32,317 bases of DNA, from contig DVJQ01000018.1 in assembly GCA_018716625.1 (NCBI GenBank), positions 1 to 32,317 on the forward strand, given 5' to 3'. Source of the DNA: Candidatus Galligastranaerophilus intestinavium (GTDB lineage Bacteria; Cyanobacteriota; Vampirovibrionia; Gastranaerophilales; Gastranaerophilaceae). Positions 7,609 through 10,788 of this stretch are shown one piece after another. How positions within the stretch are numbered: the first letter of the stretch is position 1; the number at the start of each line of letters is the position of its first letter. The notes under the pieces were generated by a model. The model searched no databases. It was not told where the DNA came from and saw nothing but the letters and a program-made list of their open reading frames with translations. The translations under genes and the position numbers were made by a program.

Positions 7609-7682
7609 TGTCCACGAGAGGATTCGAACCTCCGACATTCACCTTAGGAGGGTGACGTTCTATCCTGCTGAACTACGTGGAC
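7609..7682 (-). tRNA. tRNA-Arg (anticodon CCU)
   Basis: The minus strand folds into a full cloverleaf: acceptor GTCCACG/CGTGGAC, D-stem GTTC/GAAC, anticodon stem TCACC/GGTGA around loop CTCCTAA, and T-arm GGAGG-TTCGAAT-CCTCT. The anticodon CCU reads AGG arginine codons. CCA is not encoded; the discriminator base is A at 7609. The tRNA stands alone, and fragments of its 3' half are repeated just downstream. Confidence 0.95.
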
Positions 7683-8481: not shown

Positions 8482-9081
8482 ATGAATAAGAAAATATTTG
8501 AGCTGATAAAATTTTCATCAATTAAAAAAGTATTCAGTGCTTTTGCGGCCGATAAATACGGCAGCTGGTCAAATTCAATGTCAGGTACAAATACTTCTCT
8601 CGGCGGAATATCTCAGGGCAGAATGGAGGGGATAGGGCTGTACATATGGAACTCGGGCTGGCAGCAGTACAGCATTCCTGTGTCACAAAGGACGATTGAT
8701 AATTTATGCAGGGCAAAAAGCATTGATTTTAACTTTAAATATTATTATACACACTGGGATACCTGGTATGTAAATAACAAGCAAATTTACGCACAAATAG
8801 GCTCAATAAGTATAAACAACGGAGGCGTATACATCCATAACGGCACAACAAATATACACTTTGCAAGCGTTGCCGAACAAAATGCATGGAACGCTATATC
8901 AATAAGGCAGAGCAAAATAATAATAAACAATATCGAGTACAATTATCCGCAAGGCTGCAGTTATTCCGATGCAAACAATAATCTGCTGTATTTTAAAATA
9001 CAGCTTACAGTTGATAAAGGAGGTTACGGCGCTCAGGTAAACTATGTTATCAATCTGTCAGACATCAGTGTTAAGTGGTAG
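8482..9081 (+). CDS. Beta-rich structural protein, phage tail-like
   Basis: The product has 199 residues with GGGGTAAGG before the ATG and starts 10 bp after the previous ORF. It is rich in Ser, Asn, Tyr, Trp and Ile, with strand-like repeats such as GGVYIHNGTTNIHFAS and few charged residues. This composition is common in tail-fibre receptor-binding or surface adhesin domains. The early YGSWSNSMSGTN segment is low in complexity. No catalytic motif was found. It sits between a coiled-coil fibre-like protein and a small tail-accessory-like protein. Confidence 0.5.
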   Translation: MNKKIFELIKFSSIKKVFSAFAADKYGSWSNSMSGTNTSLGGISQGRMEGIGLYIWNSGWQQYSIPVSQRTIDNLCRAKSIDFNFKYYYTHWDTWYVNNKQIYAQIGSISINNGGVYIHNGTTNIHFASVAEQNAWNAISIRQSKIIINNIEYNYPQGCSYSDANNNLLYFKIQLTVDKGGYGAQVNYVINLSDISVKW

Positions 9082-9102
9082 ATAAAGGAAGGATAAAACA
9101 AA

Positions 9103-9345
9103 ATGTATGCAAAATTAGAAAACAATGCGCTTAAATATGCTCCGCATTATTTAATCTTAAACAATAAAACGATTTTAAACCCGCAGGAAAATGACTACAT
9201 AAACGCAGGGTATAAAGAGGTAGTGTACGGGGATATGTCTCTTTGCGAGAGCGGCAAAATAATCGTTGAAAACTACTGTGAAGATGAGAACAAAATAACT
9301 GTAAATTACACTCTTGAAGATATACAAACTCAGGATGAAACATAG
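9103..9345 (+). CDS. Small acidic protein, tail accessory-like
   Basis: The product has 80 residues with AAGGAAGG about 9 nt before the ATG. It opens MYAKLENNALKYAPHYL, followed by ILNPQENDYINAGYKEVVYG. Short proteins that begin in this manner ('kL.NG.I.yAP..l...') are often the last gene of tail-fibre modules. No membrane segment and no cysteine cluster are seen. A rho-independent terminator follows 40 bp downstream, so the trio ends here. Confidence 0.55.
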   Translation: MYAKLENNALKYAPHYLILNNKTILNPQENDYINAGYKEVVYGDMSLCESGKIIVENYCEDENKITVNYTLEDIQTQDET

Positions 9346-9384: not shown

Positions 9385-9417
9385 CCCCTTTTGAATAAAA
9401 AAAGGGGTTTTATTATT
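9385..9417 (+). terminator. Rho-independent terminator after the tail-like trio
   Basis: CCCCTTTT (9385-9392) pairs with AAAAGGGG (9400-9407) around a 7-nt loop, followed by TTTTATTATT. Confidence 0.85.
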
Positions 9418-9445
9418 CGACAAGTAAAAAAACATATGTTAGAAT
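9417..9445 (+). promoter_or_regulatory. Strong promoter for the 6S RNA candidate
   Basis: TCGACA (9417-9422) and TAGAAT (9440-9445) are separated by exactly 17 nt. This predicts a start at about 9452, just before the 5' arm of the closing stem. Confidence 0.6.
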
Positions 9446-9451
9446 TATATT

Positions 9452-9633
9452 AACCCAATACGGGCGCTAATTTTGTTCCTACATTTTTATAAATAGGGAG
9501 AGCAGGCTCTTTTAAAAGATAATTGAAGTATACCTTGTGCTAATAAGCATTTTAAGGAAACGGATTTATCGAGGCGCTCACCCACCTGCGTTGGATTTCG
9601 CGGGTAACAAAATCCGTCCGTATTTGGGTTTTT
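9452..9633 (+). ncRNA. ssrS: Candidate 6S RNA
   Basis: About 180 nt without a gene fold into one long rod. The closing stem pairs 9454-9466 with 9615-9628, then 9470-9479 with 9603-9613. A central bubble follows on the 5' side (CCTACATTTTTATAAATA). On the 3' side a small hairpin ACCTGCG/CGCGGGT (9584-9590/9599-9605) faces it. The upper stem starts with GGGAGAGC (9496-9503) against GCTCACCC (9576-9583). T5 follows at 9629-9633. A closed rod, an open central bubble with a 3'-side hairpin, this length and a strong own promoter are the hallmarks of 6S RNA. In the family it binds RNA polymerase by mimicking an open promoter. No covariance search was run. Confidence 0.65.
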
Positions 9634-9651
9634 ATATGGCAGGAAATTACA

Positions 9652-10788
9652 ATGAGGAAGTTTTTATTATTTATTTTACTGTTTGCAAGTCTTACAAACA
9701 CTTGCTATGCACAAGGTAAAATAAATTTCATATACATAAACGGTTCTAACACAAACGACGAAAAGCAGAAAAACTGGTTTTTTAGCGGTGTGGAAAAATT
9801 TCATCCAATATTTGTAAAAAAAATACTCGGTGATGATTTTATGTCAAAAAACCTTGCCCAAGAGGGAAAATACACAATTTCAAATGAACCGAACTATCTT
9901 TTTTGGGGAGATTTGACAAAATATGAAATTGAAAGACTGAATAAAGACATCAACATATTGAAGCGCACAAGTCCAAGGCTTGCACAATTTACAAGACGTT
10001 TTATTTCGATGTGCTTTCATGATGCAATTTGGATTTCCAAATTTCCAAATATGATGCCTGTTTTAGATATGCTGCAAGAACAAATTCTTGAAGCCGACAA
10101 AAATGGGGATAAAGTAGTTCTTATGGGCTATAGCGCAGGAACTTTTGTAACGTATCAGTATTTTTTAACAAAATTACCTGTTATAGAAATTAAAAAGATA
10201 GTAGAGCAACTAAATGTCACAGGCAAACAAGATGAATTCGATAAAAGCACAAAATGCAAAAACACTTGTCTGGACGCACTTTTTAGGGCTGACATTTTAA
10301 CATACAACCTAACAGGCAGACTTGTTGCAAATCCCAACGACAATTTATTAAAACAAGGTCTTGCTAATATAGACAACTATACGGATAAATATTGCGCCCC
10401 AAAAGACACCATAAAAGGGGTGGTCAACTATGCAAGTCCGATTGCACTTTTTTACTCGGATTTAGCAGACCCAAAATATAAAACAGAACAAATAAGCACG
10501 CTTGCTTATAAATATTTGATTGAAAATAACATATTTTTCCTAAACGTAAACTACGCAGACGACCCTCTTGGCATACCTGTTTCAAAAAATTTAACTTTTG
10601 AAGAAACAAAAAACATCACAAACTTGCCTATAGCAAAAGGGGGCGGATTTTACTACGACAAATCAGATATAGCCTCCCCAAGACCCTTTTTCCTTGCTCA
10701 TACTTCATACTGGGCAACAGCAAAAAAATTCTCAGACACTATAATTAAAGCTTACAACGAAGGGTACAGCTATTTTTACAATTATTAA
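9652..10788 (+). CDS. Secreted alpha/beta-hydrolase-like protein
   Basis: A signal peptide (MRKFLLFILLFASLTNTCYAQ) is followed by 355 residues. GYSAG in KVVLMGYSAGTFVTYQYF is a nucleophile elbow (GxSxG), preceded by strand VVLMG and followed by a helix. NFIYINGSN near the mature N-terminus could form the oxyanion region. A late His in LAHTSYWAT is a candidate catalytic base. The enzyme would act outside the cytoplasm on an ester or lipid; no lid or subfamily can be named. The start has AGGA 8-10 nt upstream. It begins 19 bp after the 6S candidate, so some read-through from that promoter may reach it. Confidence 0.65.
   Translation: MRKFLLFILLFASLTNTCYAQGKINFIYINGSNTNDEKQKNWFFSGVEKFHPIFVKKILGDDFMSKNLAQEGKYTISNEPNYLFWGDLTKYEIERLNKDINILKRTSPRLAQFTRRFISMCFHDAIWISKFPNMMPVLDMLQEQILEADKNGDKVVLMGYSAGTFVTYQYFLTKLPVIEIKKIVEQLNVTGKQDEFDKSTKCKNTCLDALFRADILTYNLTGRLVANPNDNLLKQGLANIDNYTDKYCAPKDTIKGVVNYASPIALFYSDLADPKYKTEQISTLAYKYLIENNIFFLNVNYADDPLGIPVSKNLTFEETKNITNLPIAKGGGFYYDKSDIASPRPFFLAHTSYWATAKKFSDTIIKAYNEGYSYFYNY

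Follow-up and report, generated by a model that had tools for sequence, protein, structure and literature searches.

6S RNA is a common bacterial RNA that mimics an open promoter and holds back RNA polymerase; it typically is an abundant transcript with its highest level in stationary phase. The 6S-1 RNA from B. subtilis is the template for a 14-mer product RNA (pRNA) with the sequence GUUCGGUCAAAACU (PMC8876501), and the cyanobacterial 6S RNA from Synechocystis has been described to bind E. coli polymerase, to inhibit transcription, to template a product RNA and to replace E. coli 6S RNA in vitro (PMC5721685). The window analyzed here, a stretch of 32,317 nucleotides from Candidatus Galligastranaerophilus intestinavium (contig DVJQ01000018.1), belongs to a non-photosynthetic gut relative of the cyanobacteria, and within the literature collection searched no paper was found to name both '6S RNA' and 'Melainabacteria'. 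On its + strand lies a locus that is almost certainly the stand-alone 6S RNA (ssrS) gene of this Candidatus Gastranaerophilales (Melainabacteria) bacterium, for which our computations revealed a sigma-A-type promoter, 6S architecture, homology to 6S RNAs, a single copy and conservation through the order. The features of the locus are listed below, the start of the gene being inferred from the -10 element and its end from the closing stem and the T run.

9417-9422, + strand: -35 element TCGACA, read in the sequence
9440-9445, + strand: -10 element TAGAAT, read in the sequence
9452-9635, + strand: 6S RNA gene of about 184 nt (full-length sub-threshold match to RF00013, match to our own model R1, covariation)
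9452-9466, + strand: 5' strand of the outer closing stem, pairing with 9615-9630 (fold, covariation)
9470-9477, + strand: 5' strand of the inner closing stem P2 (downstream duplex), AUUUUGUU, predicted product-RNA template (fold, covariation)
9478-9495, + strand: 5' strand of the central bubble, CCUACAUUUUUAUAAAUA, unpaired, 18 nt (fold)
9496-9503, + strand: 5' strand of the upper stem, GGGAGAGC (fold, covariation)
9576-9583, + strand: 3' strand of the upper stem, GCUCACCC (fold, covariation)
9584-9605, + strand: preformed hairpin of 7 bp in the 3' strand of the central bubble (fold, covariation)
9606-9613, + strand: 3' strand of P2, AACAAAAU (fold, covariation)
9615-9633, + strand: 3' strand of the outer closing stem and T run, likely terminator (sequence and fold)

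The minimum free energy (MFE) fold contains 15 pairs with one bulge in the outer closing stem and eight pairs in P2, giving 23 closing pairs in all, in agreement with the more than 20 that the initial annotation had counted; its upper stem, central bubble and 7-bp hairpin on the 3' side were likewise all found where it had placed them (9417-9635, + strand). Within this hairpin ACCUGCG (9584-9590) pairs with CGCGGGU (9599-9605). The MFE amounts to -63.7 kcal/mol compared to -44.3 +/- 4.1 kcal/mol in 200 dinucleotide shuffles, none of which folded as low (z -4.8). As the T run (9629-9633) is located at the end of the closing stem, this stem can double as a terminator.

The two promoter elements are separated by a spacer of 17 nt, and transcription would be expected to start near A9452. 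This TCGACA-17-TAGAAT promoter had already been proposed from the sequence and is present at the same positions, with one -35 and one -10 position deviating from the consensus; both elements are conserved in the orthologues. Upstream of 137 distinct orthologues the commonest layout is a TTG-type -35 element with a 17-nt spacing, and at least five positions of TATAAT are matched in 124 of the 137, compared to 74 of 137 shuffled upstream regions. Judged by this consensus match, the RNA has its own sigma-A/sigma-70 promoter, and as its downstream gene is not conserved (see below) it is a free-standing gene. Directly before the promoter a CCCCTTTT/AAAAGGGG hairpin followed by TTTTATTATT was observed (9385-9413), which, from its sequence, is likely the terminator of the upstream 80-aa gene.

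In order to assess the fold by compensatory changes two alignments were used. The first one (A1) includes 56 relatives, many of them collected by an exact pattern and all cut out with a similar pattern, and is not fitted to a covariance model. Two-sided changes occur in 24 of its 42 consensus pairs, among them 12 of the 13 consensus pairs of the outer closing stem, and add up to 237 two-sided cells compared to 56 +/- 10 after shuffling and 23-73 in slid structures. In view of this exact-pattern selection in A1, we also counted a second set of 35 sequences located by covariance model or BLAST and including other classes, whose alignment is fitted to the model and hence leans towards the structure; here 30 of 42 pairs show two-sided changes (257 cells vs 66 +/- 8) and the covariation score is 0.543 vs 0.176. 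P2 covaries in six of eight pairs once these other classes are included. Compensating changes among relatives, suggested beforehand as a check, are therefore present far above the controls in both sets, and the RNA is a covarying rod in the 180-200 nt size range whose large internal bubble lies between closing stem and upper arm.

With Rfam cut-offs the search over the window returned only a tRNA and no 6S RNA. This tRNA gene (7609-7682, - strand) scores 68.8 bits and its anticodon loop CUCCUAA suggests tRNA-Arg(CCU). With relaxed thresholds the window RNA was aligned to the 6S family RF00013 over positions 1-187 of 187 with 24.3 bits (E 0.0042 in a short search), below the gathering cut-off of 46.4 bits, which is a curators' threshold rather than a biological feature, and in a whole-genome search it fell short of E 0.001. 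The RF00013 search recommended in the initial annotation thus gave an end-to-end alignment with a score below the cut-off, and 'no RF00013 hit' would be true only in the latter sense. Since orthologues from the same family exceed the cut-off (G255 with 56.9, G238 with 52.6 and G224 with 52.5 bits), it is the cut-off that fails for the window copy while the homology stands, and the compensatory changes outweigh the sub-threshold score in support of the 6S reading. The general shape would also fit an Ms1-like RNA, Ms1 being described as structurally related to 6S RNA (PMC9130861). Such an RNA would associate with sigma-free core RNA polymerase and give no product RNA. We consider this reading highly improbable, as Ms1 has been reported from Actinobacteria (PMC9130861) and the host here belongs to the Gastranaerophilales, RF00013 is the sole plausible Rfam family in the region with no Ms1 among the matches, and the conserved product-RNA template and the sequence continuity with cyanobacterial 6S RNA both favour 6S RNA.

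To follow the 6S RNA gene through the phylum we built a covariance model (R1) from relatives including the window sequence, and its score of 166 bits (E 5.6e-37 at 9447-9639) for the window is expected for a model built from the family itself. Among the 130 genomes of the window's family R1 detected the RNA in 127, with one copy each, and it gave further matches in a second family of the order, in a further family of the class and in other classes. Among the same 292 genomes scanned, RF00013 at E <= 0.01 matched 105 of the 130 family genomes and exceeded its cut-off in at least nine of them, as tallied from the result tables. Wherever both models give coordinates their sites coincide across the phylum, for example in G255:C10 (56.9 bits), G022, G049, G044, G071, G068 and G041, and separate scans of the fetched loci agree with these genome scans. 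The 6S identity proposed at the outset is therefore supported by homology in two ways, end to end with RF00013 and through these shared sites. Of 29 related genomes, DNA similarity revealed the RNA in 23, with a reach from the window's own genus out to other families of the order, and the core pattern was present in 114 stretches from named genomes. Where these names are informative, most of them read Candidatus Gastranaerophilales or Melainabacteria; a few differ, for instance bins labelled Acinetobacter or Fusobacterium. A phage origin was rejected, as the core pattern had no match in viral contigs and the genes beside the RNA had no PHROGs match.

Within the window's genus R1 matches 14 of 15 genomes, and none of these 14 copies is matched by RF00013 even at E 1, except for an odd second copy in G004. 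This copy (L024, G004:C5) resembles the sequences of other genera, comes from an assembly with 7% contamination and is probably a foreign contig; a second 6S RNA as in B. subtilis was rejected, since the phylum survey gave one copy per matched family genome. Several variants were also observed. The RNA of L008 (G006) carries a 12-nt tandem duplication (AAAAAGGGAGAG) that widens the 5' side of the bubble, those of genus g36 (L178 1966-2240, L179 1961-2219) reach about 260-275 nt instead of about 190 nt elsewhere through an apical arm lengthened by a long insert, and L027 (3757-3812) matches the 5' core pattern with the CACCCACCT block absent within 180 nt, possibly representing a broken or divergent copy.

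Next to the RNA, a gene at 9652-10788 encodes a protein of 378 aa that starts like a signal peptide, contains a GYSAG motif and has no Pfam match at E 0.001. This putative secreted hydrolase gene is on the same strand and begins 16 nt beyond the RNA, which itself closes with a stem and T run; a riboswitch or attenuator acting in cis as leader of the hydrolase gene would show the same arrangement. Only part of the genus has this gene after the 6S RNA, however; L003-L006, L008-L010 and L012 carry a different next gene on the opposite strand with the RNA unchanged, and other genera place the RNA beside a MinD/ParA-type ATPase, dihydropteroate synthase and other genes. As the downstream gene is often replaced or inverted within the genus while the upstream genes stay, there is no stable tie to a downstream gene; a leader RNA is refuted as a general role and very unlikely. 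The upstream genes (8482-9345), which code for 199 and 80 aa and accompany the 6S RNA across the whole genus, have no family match, and the 'tail-like module' seen there by the initial annotation found no support from Pfam or PHROGs.

For the 6S RNA we propose by homology a function in sigma-A RNA polymerase sequestration followed by product-RNA release. The rod with its open bubble would mimic a melted promoter and bind the sigma-A RNA polymerase holoenzyme, which would be kept from promoters once nutrients run out. When NTPs are back, the polymerase would use the bubble's 5' strand together with that of P2 as template for a short product RNA, which may then open P2 and free the polymerase. 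The template of B. subtilis, derived from its pRNA, is AGUUUUGACCGAAC, and the corresponding stretch of the window is CUAAUUUUGUUCCUAC, again with UUUUG followed by seven nucleotides, so that the product RNA is predicted to begin with 5'-GUAGGAACAAAAUU opposite C9482. With the start placed by this alignment, its predicted sequence is 5'-GUAGGAACAAAAUUAG-3' with GUAGGAAC as first letters. The 5' tract had previously been suggested as template; the template would extend from about C9482 backwards into the closing stem instead of along the entire tract. Throughout the order the template block is nearly frozen as UUUUG(U/A)UCCUACA, in contrast to the freely varying outer stem; in A1 this invariance is partly a product of the pattern-based collection and cutting of rows, and the block is also near-invariant in 20 loci taken by covariance model. 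Such a contrast between block and stem raises the thought that the product RNA might have its own use beyond polymerase release, for example as primer or small regulator, which we regard as improbable. The in-vitro activity of the Synechocystis RNA with E. coli polymerase makes a 6S function of the window RNA likely, although it does not demonstrate it.

The locus provides a clean 6S RNA model for the Gastranaerophilales, a gut lineage in which entire genera have 6S RNA that goes unseen at the Rfam cut-off, as in that of the window. A seeming absence of 6S RNA from such genomes should therefore not be taken as loss.

In summary the locus is an ordinary 6S RNA gene, as expected for relatives of cyanobacteria, in a genus that the current Rfam model misses. 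Compared to the 6S RNAs of RF00013 (SsrS) it has the same length, closing stem, central bubble and upper arm and aligns over the full length; relatives from its family pass the cut-off, and the window's genus scores below it. E. coli 6S RNA differs in its 3'-bubble hairpin, which forms late there and is preformed here. B. subtilis 6S-1 RNA shares such a preformed hairpin of 5-7 bp in the 3' bubble strand as well as the template block, spaced as for its 14-mer product RNA (PMC8876501). Its central bubble collapse helix, in contrast, is not predicted here and was rejected, as with the template (14 nt) blocked and the RNA refolded at least four collapse pairs formed in only 1 of 136 orthologues. 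Cyanobacterial 6S RNAs such as that of Synechocystis (PMC5721685) come from the same phylum and are recovered by R1, with E values of 2.3e-5 for L187, 8.6e-5 for L182, between 0.002 and 2e-5 for L181 and L186 and 0.005 for L184, all five being large-genome members of the phylum that are taken as photosynthetic cyanobacteria from their genome size and RF00013 scores; RF00013 gives such RNAs, for example those of L187 and L182, more than 100 bits. Their hosts are photosynthetic and their template block reads TTTTTTGATCTA vs TTTTGTTCCTACATT here, but both groups have the same order of blocks, namely GATC/TTCC-TA, GGGAG/GGGAAC, CAGTA/AAGTAnACC, GGAAAC, the CCCACCTG hairpin and CAAAA.
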